Shown piece by piece: positions 34,927-63,897 of a stretch of DNA of 64,000 nucleotides (position 1 is its first letter; every line of letters begins with the position of its first letter). Where the stretch lies: the NCBI RefSeq assembly GCF_000001735.4, contig NC_003076.8, positions 7,626,001 through 7,690,000 of the forward strand. Direction: 5' to 3'. Position numbers and translations under genes: made by a program. Origin of the DNA: Arabidopsis thaliana (taxonomy: Eukaryota; Streptophyta; Magnoliopsida; Brassicales; Brassicaceae). The notes below the pieces were generated by a model. The model was not told the origin of the DNA, did not search any database, and was given only the letters and a program-made list of their open reading frames with translations.

Positions 34927-37829
34927 TCATCCATGTTGTTGTTGTTGTTGAACTACTAAAACAGAAACCCTAGCTCTTAAATCTTTGGATGCAAGCAAAT
35001 CTCCGATGACTCCTAACTCCGGAAGCTCCATCCACTGTGCCAACCCTGTTAAGTCCAGCGAATAATCTTCGTGATCTCTTCCTACAATCATCAAATCATG
35101 GTCTTCCGCCACCAATCTAACGGTGGTGGCCACCGCAGGTCCACCGTTGACTACCTTCTCCATATAGTTAAAATTGTTGGCCAATGAATATGTCGCTTTC
35201 AAATCATTCAAGACCTCGTCGTCAACAAGGTAATCCCAATTCTTGGACTTATCTAGTTCTTGACCAGACAAAAATCTGATAACAGTAAGACACACTCTCG
35301 AGTTCTGTCCCATCCATTTCGCAAGGGAAAGCGCCTCACGATCATCTTTACCACCAATGAAGATCACACCAACGTTAATGATACTGTTGGTCTTTTTCTT
35401 ACCTTTATTATATCCTCGGTAGTTAAGTATGCCGACAGAACATGGAGCGAGGTCAAGGAGAGATTCATTAACACGTCTGATCATAATATCGTCTGATTCA
35501 TATTCTCCATCGGGTGACCATTTTCGTCCCGAAGGGACAATGATCATCGATGTGAGGTGGTCTAAAGCAAGATTGCAAATGTCTTGATCCATTAGGTTCT
35601 CATGAGAATAAGCTGTGAAGGAACTAACAGTGGTAGATTCCCAATTCTCTTGTTGAAACTCGGTGAACGCGAGCATCATTGTTTGTATGTAAGAGTTTTG
35701 AAGCAACCGCGCTTTAGACCGCTTGTCATGAGGTATCAAGATGGGAAACGTACGTCCTGCGAGTTTCACTAGGTGTAACGCCGTGACAGCAATGACTCCT
35801 CTGTCTTTGTTATCGTTGTTTAGCGGCGAGGAAAGCAATTCAAGTAGCGAGATCGCACCTGAGATGTTGTCAGGCTTGTGCAAACAAGTTAGAATCTTGA
35901 GATCTGAGTTTGTTTTAAGATGCATAATGTCTCTCTTGACATATCCAATATACTTCCTCTTTGGATCATATAGTGCTTTTATAATCGTAGGCAAAATCCC
36001 CGCGTTCAATAGCACGTAAATAATCATGACCGTGTACGTTGCTCGCGACAAATTCTGTTAAAGAAAACAAAAAACATTCAACCATTAATTCAAAACCATA
36101 TGATGCAATATATATACATGTAGAGTGTAGGTTAGATGAAGATTATTTTACCCTTCTTCTTAAGGCGACATCGAAGAAGCATAAGTCAACAAAACCCTTA
36201 TAGTTCATGATAGTGGCGATGATAACGGATTCTCTAGTAGGTAACTCGCAGAAGATCAAGCAAGGTACAAAAGAGGCAGTCCATTTCACTACCACTGTAA
36301 GACCCAGTAGAAGTATGTTAAAGGAAATGTCATCGAACGAATACAATGCTCTTACAACGTCAGCTTTCATCGCCATGACCGCGATTGAAATAGGGAAAAA
36401 TATGTTTGTAACCAAGCTCTCGAACCTTGCCTCTAACGCAGATCCCAGAGGCGGACCGTCTGGGATTGCCAACCCCACCAATAAAGCTCCTAGAATGTAC
36501 ATTTGGTTGAAAACACTTAAGTATATACTCGCGGCGATTGCGGTCAGGATTGTTACGTATAAGTAGACTTTCGGTACGGGCTTGCCTTCTGGGGTCATGT
36601 CCACTATTCGTTGTGCCATTGGCTTGAAGATGAATAGGATCACAAGGACTAAGATGATCAATGCCACTATGTCGCGGTTGGCTATTCCGGGCGATACATA
36701 CCTGCAGACCGTTTCAAACTATTATAGCAAATAATGTTCGTTAGATAGTAGATATACATTACTAATCAAACACTCCGGTGCCGTCTATTGTGTAGATAAC
36801 AATTAGTATTGCTTTATAGACAATAAAACGGTAACTTTTCGTTGATCAAACTTTTAACCAGTTTTAGAGCATTATATATATTGCTTTAGGTCTCCGGATT
36901 TGTAGACTTTGATTACTACAAAAGTATATTTAATGAGGTAAGTAGTTTTGTATGCAAATGCACCAATTAGATTCCTAAATTAATCGACGTCTTACATACC
37001 TGTATGTTCCAACGTAGGAGATGCATACTAGAGTGAGAAATCCAAGGAAATCGCTGACGGCGGCTGTAGATATGGCGATGCGGCCGAGCTCGGAGTTTGA
37101 CATCTTCAGCTCATATACGAGGTGGGTTATGACCGGTAACAGCGTTACTGCTTGAATCGATACAATCACGGAGCGTTCTGTTGGGGCTAGCCTCAGAGGC
37201 ATATAAAGAGGGTCGACCTTGTCGAGACGGAAGTTTCTGAAGGCTAACCCGCTGATCATAGTCACGAAAAAGGACGAAACCGCGATTACTATCGGACGTT
37301 TACCGATTTGATACACCGCTCTCTTGTTGGTCTTCACGCCCATTAAGAACGTGAACATTACCAACCCAAGCCTGGCCACACCTTCCAACGCTACGTTTCC
37401 GGGGATGTCTAACGATAATCGGTCCGATGAATACTCCAGAAGATCAAGCAGCTGAGGTCCAAGAATCAAACCAGCCTAGTTCAAAAAAAAAAAAAAATTG
37501 TTACTTGCAGTACAAGAAACCAAGCGTTTGGTACTTGCGATACAAGAAATTGACAGTTGTGGACGTTTTTCTTAACTTACAAGTATGTTGGAGACGAACC
37601 GTGGTATGCCAATACGTCTGAGGAACATATGAGATAAGACGATGCAAACGAAGATGAGAATGATCTGCAGCTCAAGGAGAGGCAATGCATATCCGAAGAT
37701 AACAGTAGGAGTTTCATATTTTTCCATGATTCCATAAGAAGAGATGTTGAAAAAAGTAGCTCCGTAACAAATTTCAGCTTTGCTATGAGGCGGTGAAGGC
37801 CCAGGAACTAGTGCTTGAGAATCGGTCAT
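34927..37829 (-). CDS. CHX9: Cation/H+ exchanger, CPA2 family (CHX9)
   Basis: Four exons, 37581-37829, 37000-37475, 36152-36701 and 34927-36054, encode 800 aa. The N-terminal transport domain has the CHX signatures [16 protein letters not shown] and [15 protein letters not shown]. The cytosolic C-terminal domain has GGKDDREA and VGRDHEDYS near the end, and the protein stops after a glutamine run (VVQQQQQHG). Introns 1 and 3 match CHX3 in position: after the IL/ML of helix 1 and just before the SRATYT/SVRPET block. Exon 2 of CHX3 is split here by one extra intron. This supports common descent of the pair. It is likely a K+ or monovalent-cation/H+ antiporter of pollen endomembranes, by family. 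Confidence 0.94.
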
Positions 37830-55379: not shown

Positions 55380-56720
55380 ATGGAGAGAGTGATGAACATC
55401 ATAAAGCCAAAACCTGATCCCAAACAACTGTTGCGTGATTGGCAACGCAAATTACGTCAGGAGTGTCGTAACATCGAACGCCAAATCCGAGGTTCTTCTA
55501 TTTTACACATCTTCTCTCGCCTTTTTCTTATGGTCAATTTAGGGTTTTCGAAATCTAATTGAATTAGATGCTAGTTTAGATTAATTGGATTGAATCTGGT
55601 TGATCGCACCCAAAAATTGCGAGAATTTACTCTGAATCAGATTTGGATCGGATGATTTTGATTGGTGTATGAATTTTTCGATTTGATCATATGGGTTGGG
55701 TTTGAATCTATGGAATTTTTAAAGTTTTGATTTTGTTCAGATATACAGAAAGAAGAGAGAAATGTACAGAAAGCTATTAAAGAAGCTGCAAAGAGGAATG
55801 ATATGGTCTCTGCTAAGGTTAGAACCCAAAAAGTCTCTGTCTTTGTAAGCTGCAAAGAGAAAGTTTTGCTCTCTCTTCTGATTTGAGTCTTTGGTGTTCT
55901 TAGGCACTTGCTAAGGAAATTGTGAGTTCGAGAAGAACAGTGAACCGGTTATATGAGAATAAGGCACAGATGAATTCTATATCAATGCATCTTGGAGAGA
56001 GTGTTGGTAAATAAATCTTTTGTGTTCATCATTTGTTATTACTATGTTTTGTGATGTGGTGGTTTTCTTGAACTTTGTTCATTGGAAATCTGCAGCGATT
56101 GCTCGAACAGTTGGGCATTTGTCGAAGAGCGCAGAGGTTATGAAGCTTGTTAATAATCTCATGAAGGCTCCACAGATGGCTGCAACAATGCAAGAATTTA
56201 GCAAAGAGATGACTAAGGTACCTTTAATTGTTTCCTTATCTCATTGTTATTGATACGTGTTCTCTGTTTGATGATTCAGAGTTATGATCACTGCTTAACA
56301 GTTAGTATCTTTGTTTATAATCCTGAGTGTATTCTTTGATATGTGCAGGCCGGAGTTATTGAAGAGTTTGTGAATGAGGCCATTGACAATGCTCTAGATT
56401 CAGAGGATATGGAAGAAGAGATTGATGAAGAGGTTGATAAAGTATTGACAGCAATTGCTGGAGAAACCGCTGCAGAGCTCCCAGTAGCTGTTAGGAAGGA
56501 GAGGATAAAGGTACCTGCACAGAAGGCGAGCACTTCACGTGAGGTAAGATGATTGAACTTGAACATGACAAATGGTTGAGGCTTATAACTTCTGCAAGAT
56601 TAGATTCTGAGAGAAAAATTTGGTTTTCTTCTTTTGCAGGAAGAGGCAGTTGCAGAGGGTGTTGATGATGAGGAGGAATTGGAGGAAATTCGAGCTCGGC
56701 TCGCTAAAGTTAGATCCTAA
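55380..56720 (+). CDS. VPS24.1: ESCRT-III subunit VPS24 (CHMP3)
   Basis: Six exons, 55380-55491, 55741-55817, 55904-56006, 56096-56217, 56349-56543 and 56640-56720, encode 229 aa. The basic first half (VMNIIKPKPDPKQLLRDWQR, then helices rich in Lys/Arg) is the ESCRT-III core. The acidic second half begins at about SEDMEEEIDEEVDK. The end LEEIRARLAKVRS fits an MIT-interacting motif (Leu/Arg-Leu pattern), which recruits the VPS4 ATPase. VPS24 co-assembles with VPS2 on late endosomes to form intralumenal vesicles of multivesicular bodies. Length and domain order are normal. Confidence 0.95.
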
Positions 56721-57221
56721 CTGTTTCTAGTGACTCTTTTAAACGCTATTCTTGATTGATATGATCAACTTTTGATGAGAACACAAGGAGATCGCACTGT
56801 ATTGTATAATATAAATGAATAACCATGCTTCAAAGTTCAAAATACATGTAAACATTATTGTTAACGAAGTGTTTTTTTCTTCTTTTTATGGTAATTTCTT
56901 CCTAACCTTTTTCCTTAATCTAGAAAATATGGTTCAGCGATTAAAACCCGGTTTATTGTTTTTTCTCGGTTTATGTTTAGTTTACATTTTTAAACATATT
57001 TTGGCAATATTGATAAATGATTAAATATAACTTTAGGCTATATTGATTATATGACTTATCTGTAAATTTATCACTTGGTTAGGGCAAGTCATAATCTGAG
57101 TAATTAGATTGGGATAATATATTTGTTTATAGATCATACGTATAAAACGAAAAAAAACCTACAGTATAATGAAACGGACGTGACAAGTTAAATTATAGAA
57201 TAATTTGGTGACGAATCATTC
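56721..57221. other. Intergenic, VPS24 3' flank
   Basis: 501 bp holding the VPS24 3' UTR and AT-rich DNA up to the start of the palindrome. Nothing else is recognised. Confidence 0.5.
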
Positions 57222-58333
57222 AATTCACAATATGTGGTTAATAGCGAAGGTGATACGAAAAGGGAGATATATATTTCCACTCGAAAATATACTTCCCAAC
57301 ACCGTACCGAATCAAAATTATAGAAAATTATTTAGGGGACATGACACATGAGGAGAGTATTCACGAGTCGTTAATACGTCGAGTGGCGACGACGAAGAGC
57401 TACCGGAGATAGATCCTAGGCAGAAGAATTAATCTTCCACAAACCCTAGGATTGCAATAAATAACACTCCAAAATCTCTAACAAACAAAAAGAAAAGAAA
57501 GTCAATAAGGACACTGCTTTAACTTATTTTTCTTGCATTGGAAATCAGTAAGGACATTACACCAAACCTTATTTACTCCTACAACATATACTCGTGGAGT
57601 GTTGACCATTACTCCTAAATCATAGACTCGTGGAGTGTTCATCATTCACAGAAAGTAATAATATCCGGTTTAATAGTTCGGTTGAGTCGGATAACTTAAG
57701 CAATTGTAATATGAGCTTGTTCACACTCTGTTTTCATTTCTAAGATCAAATACAAAAACTTTAACAAACTTTATTCATCTTCTCTCTCGTTCGTAATACA
57801 AAGAAGAAAAACATGGCGACCAAAACCTTCTCTCTCTCTTTCCTCCTCATAGTTTGCATCTTCTCTCAACTTTCATCTACCTTTGGTGATCCTTCCGTGA
57901 AAGATTTGGGCCAACACGCTGGCTACTTCAGCCTTCCGCGTTCAAAATCAGCCAGGTTGTTCCATTTCTTCTTTCAATCACGAAACAATAGTAGTGATCC
58001 TGTTGTGATCTGGTTATCCGGCGGACCAGGTTGCAGTAGCAGTAACCAAAGATATATCAGTTACCTTAAGGTTTATTACAATCCCTTCTTTCTTTTCGTT
58101 TCCATTGTGGACTCGCGAAGCTAAAGCGGGAATGTAGTGGCCAGCGTAAGACTCACCGGTGATATAGAAGTCATCTTTTGCTAAGTTTGGATGCTCTTTG
58201 AAAAAAGCCTACGAATATGAAGGTAGAACTCAACTCAATATAATTAATTCAAAGAAAAATTCTTTTGAAATTTTTGGAAGACCAACAACAAATCAAATAA
58301 CCTGTAAGAAGTCGTATAGGTCATTGCTGACAC
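57222..58333 (+). repeat. Left arm of a 2.6-kb palindrome made of carboxypeptidase gene pieces
   Basis: The reverse complement of this arm is found at 58532-59821. From 57813 to 58333 the pairing keeps one axis: every checked pair of positions sums to 116865, which means no net indel over 521 bp. In the blocks read by eye I saw one codon difference (Ser to Pro near residue 9). Outside 57813 the arms still match over blocks such as 57361-57403 but are offset by about 181 bp, because the right arm has extra sequence. From outside in, the arm holds a promoter-like block, a leader, a fused carboxypeptidase exon 1-2 in sense, then a carboxypeptidase exon 4 with its upstream intron in antisense. 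Confidence 0.9.
57813..58124 (+). pseudogene. Truncated serine carboxypeptidase (S10) piece, left arm
   Basis: The open frame has 103 codons. It starts with a signal peptide (MATKTFSLSFLLIVCIFSQL), then matches SCPL47 over GDPSVKDLGQHAGYFSLPRS to SDPVVIWLSGGPGCSSS. The pro-region present in SCPL47 is missing, and the intron that splits SCPL47 after HSKSAK is absent. Homology ends at about 58043. The remaining codons read the intron start and then antisense of another carboxypeptidase exon, so the C-terminus is nonsense. The catalytic Ser, Asp and His are not encoded. It cannot be an active peptidase. A spliced transcript joining this to the sense exon in the right arm is conceivable; a gene model may have been drawn that way, but the phases I tried do not fit simply. 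Confidence 0.8.
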
Positions 58334-58421
58334 TGTCCTCGTCATGCCTGAGATCGGTGCTGTCGTTCGCGTAACTAAACCCCGTTCGGATTGGTTGGTC
58401 CACGTAAATTAGATTGGATAT
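58065..58421 (-). pseudogene. Antisense carboxypeptidase exons 3 and 4 in the left arm
   Basis: On the minus strand two intact exon-like blocks are seen. 58302-58421 encodes 40 residues with YVDQPIRTGFSY, the counterpart of SCPL47 exon 3 (also 120 bp). 58065-58208 encodes 48 residues with the active-site motif GESYAGHY, the counterpart of SCPL47 exon 4 (also 144 bp). An intron with GT-AG ends separates them. In YVDQPIRTG the usual VG is replaced by IR. The block lacks any start or following exons, so it is a gene fragment. Only the end of exon 3 falls within the palindrome; the rest of exon 3 lies in the loop. Confidence 0.8.
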
Positions 58422-58531
58422 CTATTAAACAAAAAAAATAATAGTTAAATTATGGATTAATTTGTTTCTTGAGGAACAAGAAAGGAACCAACCTAGTCCC
58501 AAAAAAAAAACCCAACCTAGTCCCAAAATTT
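58334..58531. other. Loop of the palindrome (198 bp)
   Basis: The unpaired centre between the arms. The left 88 bp are the remainder of antisense carboxypeptidase exon 3. The right part is AT-rich, with two copies of CCAACCTAGTCCCAAAA (58490-58528). Because only the left side has the full exon 3, the right arm's copy was cut at about 58532. Confidence 0.8.
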
Positions 58532-58800
58532 GTGTCAGCAATGACCTATACGACTTCTTACAGGTTATTTGATTTGTTGTTGGTCTTCCAAAAATTTCAA
58601 AAGAATTTTTCTTTGAATTAATTATATTGAGTTGAGTTCTACCTTCATATTCGTAGGCTTTTTTCAAAGAGCATCCAAACTTAGCAAAAGATGACTTCTA
58701 TATCACCGGTGAGTCTTACGCTGGCCACTACATTCCCGCTTTAGCTTCGCGAGTCCACAATGGAAACGAAAAGAAAGAAGGGATTGTAATAAACCTTAAG
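58532..58800 (+). pseudogene. Sense carboxypeptidase exon 3 end and exon 4 in the right arm
   Basis: Reads the last 11 codons of exon 3 (SVSNDLYDFLQ), an intron and the complete exon 4 at 58657-58800 (48 codons with GESYAGHYIPALASR). Over these 144 bases I count 24 mismatches to SCPL47 exon 4 (63007-63150), about 83% identity; the longest perfect run is 17 bases. The exon is followed directly by a few bases of its intron and then by antisense exon 2, so it has no functional continuation. Confidence 0.8.
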
Positions 58801-59052
58801 GTAACTGATATATCTTTGGTTACTGCTACTGCAACCTGGTCCGCCGGATAACCAGATCACAACAGGATCACTACTATTGTTTCGTGATTGAAAGAAGAAA
58901 TGGAACAACCTGGCTGATTTTGAACGCGGAAGGCTGAAGTAGCCAGCGTGTTGGCCCAAATCTTTCACCGAAGGATCACCAAAGGTAGATGAGAGTTGAG
59001 AGAAGATGCAAACTATGAGGAGGAAAGGGAGAGAGAAGGTTTTGGTCGCCAT
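58741..59052 (-). pseudogene. Truncated serine carboxypeptidase piece, right arm
   Basis: Mirror copy of the left-arm piece: 103 codons with the same stop and only one residue changed (SLPFLL instead of SLSFLL). Like its partner it has a leader, signal peptide and the GGPGCSSS motif, then runs into antisense sequence. The two pieces face each other, so transcription from both leaders would be convergent. Confidence 0.8.
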
Positions 59053-59821
59053 ATTTTCTTCTTTGTATTACGAACGAGAGAGAAGATGAAGAAAGTTTGT
59101 TAAAGTTTTTGTATTTGATCTTAGAAATGAAAACAGAGCGTGAACAAGCTCATATATTGCTTAAGTTATCCGACTCAACCGAACTATTAAACCGGATACT
59201 ATTACTTTCTGTGTACGATAATTGGATAATAATAGAGAGTGATGATGAACACTCCACGAGTCTATGCTTTAGGAGTAAATGATTAACACTCCACGAGTAT
59301 ATGTTGTAGGAGTAAATAAGGTTTGGTGTAATGTCCTTACCGATTTCCAATGCAAGAAAAATAAGCTAAAGCAGTGTCCTTATTGACTTTCTTTTCTTTT
59401 TTTGTTGTTAGAGATTTTATAGTGTTATTTATGACAATCTTAATTATTCATATATGTTTATAACTGATTTCTTGATCATAAGTTTTATTTATCGAGATTA
59501 AAAAACAATTCTTGGCAATATTTAATTCGATGAGTCTTTTCTGTCATATAGACGTGGACTTGTGTTTAGTATATAGACACAAGGATCTATCTCCCCGTAG
59601 GATTCGTGGAAGATCAATTCTTCTGCCTAGGATCTATCTCCCGTAGCTCTTCGTCGTCGCCACTCGACGTATTAACGACTCGTGAATACTCTCCTCATGT
59701 GTCATGTCCCCTAAATAATTTTCTATAATTTTGATTAGGTGTTGGAAAGTATATTTTCGAGTGGAAATGTATCTCCCTTTTCAAATCACCTTCGCTATTA
59801 ATTAACCACATTTTGTGAATT

Positions 59822-60352
59822 TGCAGACTGTTCTGGGATTTGGTCAATGATTCTAATGCATGTTTAGGATATCTGATTTCAAAATAATGCGATACAATAT
59901 TAGCTTTCATCTTTTGTTGATTCAAGATATTTAAGATTTTTAAAAAACAAACTGAAAATCCATATTAAAATTTATTTAGTATCCAAAGTAAATTTGAATA
60001 AAGATGTAAAATCACCCTAGTTTTTAAAAAATAAAAATAAAAACGAAAATGGAGAAAAGGAAAAACATAGTAGTTTGGTCGGAAAATAATAAGGAGGTTC
60101 ATTAATATGTAAATCACTTTTCTTTTCTTTTTTGTGAAAAAATGAATGTAGTAAAACTTAAAAAGTGAAAAAACCCCAAATGTTATCAAATGTGACAAAT
60201 GGGTTTGAATTGTAATCAAATGTTACAAATGGGTTTGAATTGTAAACAAAAGTTATCAAATGTTATAAATTGGGTTTGAATTGTAGTCAAATATCACAAA
60301 TTTATATAGTTCGAATCTGGAAGTATAACGTTAAACGGAAATAAAAGATTAA
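59822..60352. other. Intergenic with a short tandem repeat
   Basis: Between the palindrome and the S1-like gene's stop. AT-rich; the right part contains imperfect units of about 30 bp (listed separately). No gene is seen. Confidence 0.5.
60185..60303. repeat. Imperfect 30-bp tandem repeat, about 3.5 units
   Basis: Units at 60185-60214, 60215-60244 and 60255-60285 share ATCAAATG, ACAAATGGG or ATAAATTGGG, then TTTGAATTGTA. A partial unit follows. It lies just downstream of the S1-like stop codon and may be in its 3' UTR. Confidence 0.85.
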
Positions 60353-60793
60353 CTAGTTAATCCAAAACCTTGGAGGGATGAGATCGAAGGTTTTCTTGTT
60401 ATTGTTCCAACTATAAAATCCATAGTCTTTGGCAAAAATGGAACACGAGTCTTTGCAGTGATCTTTGTCTGATGAATCGTACAAAACGAACCACATCCCG
60501 TAAGCTGCGGAACTTTTCTTATTGTAAAACGTTCCTACACATAGCGTATGTGATAACTGTCTAGATCCCGCCACTTTTTCATTATCGCCGGCAATGCTTG
60601 GGATCTCTATCATAATCTTTTGACCCAAAGGTACGGATTTGGACAGTTCAGGGGTTGGGCGGCACGTGACGAAAACGGGAACATTTGGAAGTGTTTGCAT
60701 CTCGTTGGATACGATAAGTGTGGCGGCACGTGCAGATCCAGACCTAGCAAAGAGCATTAGGACCATGATCGATACCAATATAAGTGTGTCCAT
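60353..60793 (-). CDS. Small secreted protein, divergent S1/SPH (self-incompatibility-like) family
   Basis: Single exon, 146 aa. A signal peptide (about 1-23, ends GSARA) precedes a beta-rich domain. Features typical of S1-like proteins are present in order: a V.N start strand (TLIVSNEM), PVFVTCRP, a PLG turn, LCVGTFYN, then FVLYDSSDKDHCKDSC with two of the conserved cysteines, and an aromatic GFYSWN. There are four Cys after the signal peptide. S1 proteins of poppy act as pistil determinants; the many Arabidopsis SPH genes have mostly unknown roles. The match is by pattern only and the middle is atypically long, so another secreted family is possible. A TATA run lies about 65-75 bp upstream. 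Confidence 0.6.
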   Translation of the reverse strand: MDTLILVSIMVLMLFARSGSARAATLIVSNEMQTLPNVPVFVTCRPTPELSKSVPLGQKIMIEIPSIAGDNEKVAGSRQLSHTLCVGTFYNKKSSAAYGMWFVLYDSSDKDHCKDSCSIFAKDYGFYSWNNNKKTFDLIPPRFWIN

Positions 60794-62083
60794 AATTTTG
60801 ATTCGGTGTTGGATGGTATATCTTTTGAGTGCAAATGTATCTCCCTTGGCTTTTCATATATATATACATGAGCTAGCTTCAGTTTCTCAAATTTGGGCCA
60901 TAAACAATATCTACGTTATAGGTGATTAATAGCTGAATCTATATGGTTACAAATTAGAGTTAACAATTTCAGCTTGGTACATATTTAATTTATGCTATTT
61001 ACACTCGTTATGAAACTCAAACATAGGGTAGTTTTCAAAATCTTCCTTTTTAATTTATGCTATTTACACTCTTTACACTCTCCAATCGTACAAACACCTA
61101 GATCTAGCACACACATAGTAACTTCACATCTCCCCTAAAAACCTAAGACTTCATATCAAAAAACAAATAACAAAAATACAAGAAATAACTAAAAATTCAG
61201 AAATTCTTAGTTATATATGTCAAAATTAAAGTTTTTAAAAATGAGTTTTTTGGGGACTCAAACCGGAACTAGCTCAGACTCTCAAATCATACACCTTCCT
61301 GAACCGATTTAAACTAAATATTTATAAAAACTCGAACGATTCTAAACCGTCACCTAAAATACCAAACGCGGGAAAAAATTCTGAACTGACCCGAAAACCC
61401 GAATGACTAGACCTAGTAAGCATCATAGCCGCTAAGAGATTTGTCTGGTGTGGTAAATTCATGCATGCACCTAAATTTTAATTTGGTGAATTGGAATTTT
61501 TTTTTCACTTGGTTTTTGGTTTCTAGAAGGTGAATTAGATAACCACTAAATCAAAATTTGATAGAAACATTGTATCGACGTTGATTGAATCAATAACATA
61601 TTTTGAGCAAAAATTTTCATTTTTAATCATCTGGTGTATTCCTAACAAATTATAAAAGCTATAAGTAATGACTGGAAACTAATTTGGCTAAACATTAATC
61701 AATTAAAGTTATAAAATATATTTTATTTATAACAATTATATGGATAAGAGTTTAAGTTTTAGGACTTAGGATTTAGCATTTGGAATTGAGACTTTAACTT
61801 TTAATTTTTACTCTAAATTTAGTTTTTAGGGTAACTTAGAATAAAATATAAATTTGGGGGTTGAATATACAAGATTTGTTAACTTTTTGGGCTTTTAACT
61901 TTTTGGAATATTTTCTTATTTTTGATATATATAAACTTATATACTGAAATCACTTTTGGAAAGATATCTTCCATATATCTCTTCTTAATCCAATTTTTTG
62001 CCAAGTCCTTATATATCTCCATTTCCACCCTACACCCAACTCTCGTACAAAGCAGGAAAAACAACAAAAAAAACAAAAACAAA
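60794..62083. other. Divergent region between S1-like gene and SCPL47
   Basis: 1.3 kb. The left end is the S1-like promoter, including the 58-bp block shared with the palindrome arms. A 20-bp string, TAATTTATGCTATTTACACT, occurs twice (about 60988 and 61052). The right end is the SCPL47 promoter with TATATATAAA at about 61926. No gene is seen. Confidence 0.5.
60857..60866 (-). promoter_or_regulatory. TATA run of the S1-like gene
   Basis: TATATATATA, 64-73 bp upstream of the ATG. Confidence 0.5.
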
Positions 62084-63897
62084 ATGGAGGCCAAAACATT
62101 TTTTCTCTTCATGCTTTTCATCTTTTCTCAGTCTTGGCTCTCAACTTCTAAAAGGATCCTAAACAATCCCTCTGTTTTCTCATCGTCTTTGAATTTTTCG
62201 AGTGGTAATGCAGAGAGACTTATAAAATCATTCAATCTAATGCCTAAGTATGACGTTAATGTCATCCCAAAAGGAAGCCTTGATGCTCCAAGACTCATTG
62301 AGAGACAAATTGATTTTCTGGCGACAGCCGGTTCCAAAAACGCTTCCGTTGGTCCTTCTGTTCAAGAGTTTGGCCACTACGCTGGTTATTACAGCCTTCC
62401 TCATTCAAAATCAGCCAAGTAAAGTTTTAATCTGTTCAAATAATGATTTGCTTTAATGGAGATCAATTTAGTAGTTAGTACTTAGTATAGATAAGTACAC
62501 GTGTTTTATTTGATATTGCAGGATGTTCTATTTCTTTTTTGAATCACGGAACAAAACAACCGATCCGGTTGTGATCTGGTTAACCGGTGGACCGGGCTGC
62601 AGTAGTAGTGTGGCTATGTTTTATGAAAACGGTCCGTTCAAGATCTCAAAGGATTTGTCTCTCTATTGGAACGATTTTGGCTGGGACAAGGTTTGACTAG
62701 TTTAGTAGAAATAACATCTTTCTTGTTACTCAAGAAACATATCTATCTACAATAAACATAGCAAAAATGCATTTCTTCTTAACTCTTGTTTTAATAGGTA
62801 TCCAATATAATCTACGTGGATCAGCCAGTCGGGACTGGTTTCAGTTACACATCTGACGAAAGCGATATCCGGAATGACGAGGATGGTGTCAGTAATGACC
62901 TTTATGATTTCTTACAGGTTTGATGGCTGTTGGTCTTCCAAATTTTGTTATCTGTATTGTTCTTTTGAGTTGTAGTGACTTTGGTTCTATCTTTGAATTT
63001 TGGTAGGCTTTCTTTAAAGAGCATCCAAAATTCGTAAAGAATGATTTCTTTATTACCGGTGAATCTTACGCTGGTCACTACATTCCGGCTTTGGCTTCAC
63101 GTGTTCATAGTGGCAACAAAAAGAAAGAAGGGATTCCAATCAACCTTAAGGTAAGTGATCACAATGGTTTTGTTTTTGGGGGGAATAAACCAAATTTTCT
63201 TGTTTAATCTCGATTGAAATCAGGGTTTTGCGATTGGTAACGGTTTAACCAACCCGGAGATCCAATATGGTGCGTATGGGGATTATGCACTGCAAATGAA
63301 GTTGATTTCAGAGTCTGACCACGAGAGCCTCAAGCAAGATTACGTTGAGTGTCAAAATATAACCAAAAAATGCAGTAATTTCAATAAAAAGCTCTTTCTT
63401 CTTTATTTTCGTTAGATACATATTGTTCGAGTTAAAAGATAAGAAACTTATATTTTGTTAATATCAGGTCTTGGTGGTGGTTTAGTTTGTGATTCTGCTG
63501 TTGAAGTTTGCACCAGTATCTTCAACAAGATAGTGGCAAAAAAAAGTGGCCTAAATGTAAGCATAAAAAACCTTAAACTGATTGTGTTTTCTCAATAAAA
63601 TTTCTTTTGTTTACGAGATTTCCTCGATTTGTTTGAAGTATTATGACATTAGGAAGAAATGTGTGGGGAGCTTGTGTTATGACTTTTCGAGGATGGAAAT
63701 ATTCTTGAACAAAGAAAATGTACGGAAAGCCTTAGGAGTTGGAGATATCAAGTTTGTGTCTTGTAGTAGTACAGTTTATGATGCAATGATAGAGGACTGG
63801 ATGCAGAATCTTGAGGTCAAGATCCCGTCTCTTGTCAATGATGGAATCAATCTTCTAGTTTATGCTGGAGAATATGATCTCATTTGCAATTGGCTTG
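62084..63897 (+). CDS. SCPL47: Serine carboxypeptidase-like protein SCPL47 (S10), 3' end outside window
   Basis: Exons seen are 62084-62418, 62522-62690, 62798-62917, 63007-63150, 63224-63374, 63468-63556 and 63639-63897; the last one ends at a donor (GT at 63898) and the gene continues beyond 64000. About 422 residues are in view. A signal peptide (about 1-23) and a pro-region precede the S10 domain: GGPGCSSS (oxyanion region), DQPVGTGFSY, nucleophile GESYAGHY (Ser about 228) and VYAGEYDLICNWLG (Asp about 416). The catalytic His must lie in a following exon. Members are vacuolar or secreted carboxypeptidases, or acyltransferases; the CPY-like features (class III group) suggest a peptidase. 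The nearby palindrome is built from relatives of this gene. Confidence 0.92.

Follow-up and report, generated by a model that had tools for sequence, protein, structure and literature searches.

AT5G22960, a probable endogenous inverted-repeat siRNA locus derived from a broken SCPL47-like carboxypeptidase gene copy in Arabidopsis thaliana

Endogenous inverted repeats that give rise to siRNAs are represented in Arabidopsis by the “endoIR-siRNA” loci IR71 and IR2039, both of which, according to the available passages on them, are diced by DCL2, DCL3 and DCL4. AT5G22960, the locus considered here, is like them an endogenous inverted repeat with siRNAs, and it differs from IR71, for which those passages give a dsRNA of about 3 kb, in that its near-perfect part is 521 bp long and the gene family behind its arms can be identified. 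MIR163 and MIR161 also contain an inverted duplication of sequence from a protein-coding family, as AT5G22960 does, and MIR163, in the available part of PMC1790633, acquired its promoter too from the gene that it arose from. These two loci give discrete miRNAs, whereas AT5G22960 has a long, nearly perfect duplex. To our knowledge, no miRNA is known from AT5G22960. A natural inverted repeat of a gene family is likewise found at the I locus of soybean, where the CHS1-3-4 cluster silences CHS7/8 and yields primary siRNAs against intact relatives (PMC3804491, available part); that cluster, however, spans 27 kb and has a seed-coat phenotype, whereas AT5G22960 spans 2.6 kb and any effect of it is conjectural. 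AT5G22960 lends itself well to the question of whether gene-derived hairpins silence the family from which they came or merely persist, because its closest relative begins 2.3 kb from the palindrome edge and just two relatives were found in the genome at the nucleotide level. The closest relative is an S10 carboxypeptidase gene which we take, from its position, to be AT5G22980 (SCPL47); the other, which the inner arm matches on chromosome 3 (C3 16467022-16467635), is presumably the SCPL48 locus.

The proposal of an earlier note on this DNA that the hairpin is a source of siRNAs is essentially right, and it has already been reported. A commentary of 2024 in The Plant Cell (PMC11663577), written to accompany Li et al. 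2024, treats both IR71 and At5g22960 as endogenous inverted repeats, and states that the effect of amp1 lamp1 on the SUC:SUL hairpin is found at both as well. A 2020 survey (PMC7001039), in the part available, includes AT5G22960 in its own Table 1 among 107 “PHAS” (phased siRNA) loci, a locus being retained only on detection in 3 or more of 902 small-RNA libraries; its phasiRNAs come from 21-22-nt reads, and on a repeat such a call does not tell the two arms apart as sources of the reads. The published interval falls within the stretch over which the arms are identical, in the carboxypeptidase-like right arm. Polarity in that survey was set from the trigger where one was found, and the AT5G22960 locus is given without inferred polarity; a missing trigger is as expected, because a self-folding hairpin needs no miRNA trigger. 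A lack of small RNAs in every tissue, the outcome which the earlier note had named as contrary to its reading, is opposed by both of these records, the second in the part available. IR2039 was considered as a name for the AT5G22960 locus and set aside: the available IR2039 passages give no position, and the two are not equated. The available part of PMC2246279 places At5g22960 among embryo-sac-enriched genes on the ATH1 array (coa data set), a signal that could be cross-hybridisation with relatives. The derivation from an SCPL47-like gene, the chimeric build of the arm and the gradient of divergence described below may be new; they were not met in the literature search, which is not a claim that they are absent from print.

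The features of the palindrome are collected in the following table, in positions of the window, that is, of the whole 64-kb stretch of DNA that was analysed. The window is taken to be Chr5:7626001-7690000 of A. thaliana, a placement supported by the published Chr5 interval of the PHAS locus, which on this offset lands in the carboxypeptidase-like right arm.

Table 1. Parts of the palindrome, its open frames, the published phased siRNA locus and the neighbouring carboxypeptidase gene
Feature	Position in window	Strand	Content
Left outer arm	57222..57812	+	5'/upstream region of the carboxypeptidase copy
Left inner arm	57813..58333	+	SCPL47-like exons 1-2 sense, then exon 4, intron 3 and end of exon 3 antisense
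103-aa open frame, left copy	57813..58124	+	First 77 aa match Pfam Peptidase_S10
Loop	58334..58531	none	Remaining antisense exon 3, a bit of intron 2, filler
Right inner arm	58532..59052	-	Reverse complement of left inner arm
PHAS locus	58660..58943	- (AT5G22960)	Chr5:7684660-7684943 (PMC7001039, available part)
103-aa open frame, right copy	58741..59052	-	Starts MATKTFSL; AT5G22960 is listed on the minus strand
Right outer arm	59053..59821	-	Left outer arm mirrored
Neighbouring S10 carboxypeptidase gene, first four exons	62084..63150	+	Closest relative of the arms

The near-identical inner arms of about 520 bp around a 198-bp loop which the earlier note had described are borne out by the arm alignment, in which 521 bp contain 3 substitutions and no indel; a repeat search extends the pair slightly (57808-58333 and 58532-59057, 526 nt, 99% complementary, spacing 198 nt). 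Over the 437 bp nearest the loop (57897-58333 against 58532-58968) the aligned arms are identical. The outer arms differ by 26 substitutions in 579 aligned bp and by 9 indels, the largest of which are 157 and 27 bp, with both extra blocks carried by the right arm; the constant axis holds for the inner arms and is lost in the outer ones. Eight inverted pairs were found when the window was searched for pairs of at least 60 nt within 6 kb, and of these five are pieces of the palindrome and three pair the palindrome with the neighbouring carboxypeptidase gene. The palindrome is real, and a chance origin is ruled out by arm length alone. It is also unlikely, judging from the sequence differences, that one arm is an assembly artefact, as the earlier note had allowed, because 29 substitutions and 9 indels separate the two.

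Each inner arm aligns as a chimera with an internal turn, in which a piece of exons 1 and 2 in sense is joined to the exon 3-4 region in antisense. The order along the plus strand begins with the upstream region (57222-57812), exons 1-2 in sense (57813-58043) and then an antisense stretch made up of exon 4, intron 3 and exon 3 (58056-58429, of which 58056-58333, reaching into the end of exon 3, belongs to the left inner arm); the second half consists of the end of exon 3, intron 3 and exon 4 in sense (58532-58809), exons 2 and 1 in antisense up to 59052, and the mirrored upstream region. An upstream region is present in each half of the palindrome, and the two copies face each other. The description of the whole as a palindrome of carboxypeptidase pieces applies to its inner part, while the outer 591 bp on the left and 769 bp on the right are non-coding or upstream DNA. 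Within the loop, antisense exon 3 continues to about 58429 and a bit of intron 2 occupies 58449-58484, followed by filler. This filler contains a 24-nt direct duplication (58478-58501 and 58502-58525, 83% alike) and looks like repair filler; elsewhere in the window, 41 nt at 37453-37493 are 80% like 58470-58510 of the loop.

The aligned arm pieces are 77-83% identical to SCPL47 (exons 1-4 at 62084-62418, 62522-62690, 62798-62917 and 63007-63150), a likeness to a protein-coding family that exceeds a target site, and Pfam Peptidase_S10 is matched by two pieces, one of exons 1-2 in the left arm and one of exons 3-4 in the left arm plus loop. The gene copy is nevertheless broken, lacking about 64 codons behind its start region as well as the remainder of exon 2, and comparison with SCPL47 found no match in the palindrome to sequence beyond exon 4. 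Intron 1, which is present in both SCPL47 and SCPL48, is missing exactly at the exon 1/2 border (57953-57957 against 62418-62522), but intron 3 is kept, and the copy is therefore not a simple processed retrocopy.

Across the 139 codons shared by all three sequences, the palindrome copy has 80.3% nucleotide identity to SCPL47 (dN 0.13, dS 0.83) and 74.3% to SCPL48 (dN 0.16, dS 1.83), and SCPL47 and SCPL48 have 82.3% identity to each other (dN 0.09, dS 0.95). The dS of 0.83 is a rough estimate, because the two pieces of the copy differ, with 0.57 for exons 1-2 (52 codons) and 1.05 for exons 3-4 (87 codons). By these distances the SCPL47-like copy is old, and its dN/dS of about 0.15, a pairwise value that includes the constraint on SCPL47 itself, suggests protein constraint over much of its history. 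The fold-back is another matter: its divergence is 4.5% in the outer arms, which, at a mutation rate of about 7e-9 per site per generation, would date it to roughly 3 million years, far younger than the gene copy, with hairpin age and species limits based on divergence alone.

A transcript crossing the palindrome had been expected to fold into a near-perfect duplex, and the prediction agrees: the plus strand from 57813 to 59052 folds as one long duplex at -1030.1 kcal/mol, and the whole 2600-nt strands give about -1959 (plus) and -1987 (minus) kcal/mol. The long near-perfect inverted repeat with the capacity for intramolecular dsRNA by which endoIR-siRNA loci are recognized is thus present. 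Transcription across both arms has indirect indications, namely the ATH1 array listing and the naming of the locus among inverted repeats that produce small RNAs. AT5G22960 is very probably such a locus, a head-to-head SCPL47 duplicate whose transcript folds and is diced. In the mechanism that we propose, an old SCPL47 duplicate would first have undergone rearrangement, and the rearranged copy would later have been duplicated head-to-head along with its upstream region; Pol II would begin transcription in one of the outer arms, the right arm (minus strand) being the likeliest, and continue across the loop into the other arm; folding of the transcript would create a duplex of at least 520 bp, from which DCL2, DCL3 and DCL4 would dice mixed 21-, 22- and 24-nt siRNAs; and some of these could, by their sequence, direct AGO1 to the SCPL47 and SCPL48 mRNAs. 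We infer the choice of promoter, the set of Dicers and any effect on SCPL47 or SCPL48, the siRNA sizes and Dicer dependence being drawn by analogy from IR71 and IR2039. A start in the right arm is weakly suggested, because the annotation is on the minus strand and because a TATA-like TATATG (59156, minus strand, right outer arm) is intact only there, a 4-bp indel breaking it up in the left arm.

The candidate targets of such siRNAs come from a nucleotide search of the whole genome, in which the left inner arm had eight matches: the two arms, three pieces of SCPL47 on C5 and three of SCPL48 on C3, so that these two genes are the sole other matches in the genome. At3g45010 and At5g22980 stand side by side in the S10 table of PMC1560137. 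Predicted complementarity was evaluated by Allen-type scoring with a cut-off of 4: the possible 21-mers from both strands of 57808-58333, the left inner arm, were compared with exons 1-4 of each gene, the only exons used because the arms matched nothing further downstream. Scores of 4 or less were obtained by 130 of the 1012 21-mers against SCPL47 and by 47 of 1012 against SCPL48, and the right inner arm gave the same counts at this cut-off. Five mononucleotide shuffles of the left arm gave 0 for each target, a weak control that excludes chance only, because homology guarantees such matches. Exact matches reach at most 17 nt with SCPL47 and 18 nt with SCPL48, and no exact 21-nt match between the inner arm and exons 1-4 of either gene was found; targeting would therefore need tolerated mismatches. 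Regulation of S10 carboxypeptidases by the hairpin, which the earlier note had put forward, is on this predicted pairing possible but unproven, and the literature search found no published test of whether the AT5G22960 hairpin lowers its sister genes. The miRNA miR865, whose predicted targets include the serine carboxypeptidase At5g42240, concerns another gene and was set aside.

The distribution of differences between the arms is uneven, with 10/220, 11/192, 2/64, 3/103, 3/243 and 0/278 substitutions in successive segments from the outside to the loop. The outer arms differ from the inner ones (26/579 against 3/521, Fisher P 3e-5), the contrast within the inner arm is not significant (3/243 against 0/278, P 0.10), and the absence of change from the last 437 of 1100 positions has a probability of 3e-7 if the 29 changes are random, all of these values being guides, with segment borders set after inspection of the sequence and outer arms that are non-coding. 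The fall in divergence from about 5% outside to zero in the inner 437 bp therefore points to arm-to-arm conversion or to constraint, and gene conversion between the arms would be the simplest cause. This fall towards the loop separates two ages, that of an old gene copy and that of a young or homogenised hairpin. A methylation footprint in the arm differences was considered as well; the transitions, 19 of the 29, are unpolarised and too few, and they neither show nor exclude one.

Constraint on the duplex is part of a reading that goes beyond the endoIR-siRNA explanation, in which the hairpin is a proto-MIRNA or functional silencer that is selected, with siRNAs that lower SCPL47 and SCPL48, and is on its way to becoming a miRNA gene, a course that has been proposed for MIR163. 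This reading is unlikely. It is favoured by the contrast between the loop-proximal 278 bp and the outer arms, by the inverted duplication of sequence from the target family along with an upstream region, by the predicted complementarity to both paralogues, and by the siRNA stage before miRNAs described in the available part of PMC1790633; however, gene conversion between close palindrome arms gives the same gradient without selection, a search of 56500-60500 against Rfam at the gathering score found no known RNA family, and drift and death are, in the available part of the same paper, perhaps the commonest fate of such loci. There is also no short imperfect foldback of the kind suited to DCL1, and the near-perfect 521-bp duplex found in its place has the structure of an siRNA source rather than that of a miRNA precursor. 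What the locus shares with the proposed precursor stage of MIRNA genes is a gene-derived inverted duplication, both arms of which resemble a protein-coding family; a course towards a MIRNA gene is possible but unproven. It is improbable that the inner 437 bp have been kept identical as a useful duplex, which would make the locus a young selected silencer, a retired carboxypeptidase gene turned into a source of RNAi against its relatives SCPL47 and SCPL48; the site of such silencing might be in or near the embryo sac, for which the array study listed the transcript.

That the locus is mostly an inert relic, a pseudogene left by rearrangement, with siRNAs directed chiefly at their own locus (for example through methylation) and no effect in trans, has a little less than an even chance, and is compatible with the endoIR-siRNA explanation. 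The broken state of the gene copy fits it, as does the high methylation in all contexts that the available passages give for IR71 and IR2039, but the listing of the locus with IR71 in the amp1 lamp1 work (PMC11663577) suggests activity.

The outer arms bear on a different origin for the palindrome, namely a Pack-MULE or foldback-type transposon with captured pieces of a carboxypeptidase gene lying between its terminal repeats, and such an origin is very improbable. Long inverted repeats do enclose gene fragments here, and a 59-bp piece of the outer end recurs at 60789-60847 with 88% identity, the left outer arm giving a weak 66-bp match there in a search of the window; however, in whole-genome searches with both outer arms at E 0.001, the best candidates being scored, no further copy was found beyond each other and this piece, and no direct repeat of 8-12 nt lies across the ends at 57222 and 59821, the longest being a 7-mer at 57203 and 59838 that abuts neither. 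The transposon was accordingly disfavoured, its ends having neither a multi-copy family nor an abutting target-site duplication of the size looked for, and a head-to-head duplication of the SCPL47-like copy is preferred.

Several smaller features lie in and beside the outer arms. The sequence at 59722-59779 (also 57260-57324, inverted) is 88% like 60789-60847, the leader of a 146-aa ORF (60353-60793, minus strand) that has a secreted-looking start and presumably corresponds to AT5G22970, whose position it fits; the palindrome edge may, by this similarity, hold a piece of the 5' region of that gene. Each outer arm contains a tandem duplication of 36-37 nt (57573-57644 and 59242-59315; TTACTCCTA...CTCGTGGAGTGTT), which, being common to both, is probably older than the fold-back. 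A short degenerate array of direct repeats with units of about 30 nt (AAATGGGTTTGAATTGTAATC) lies at 60178-60301.
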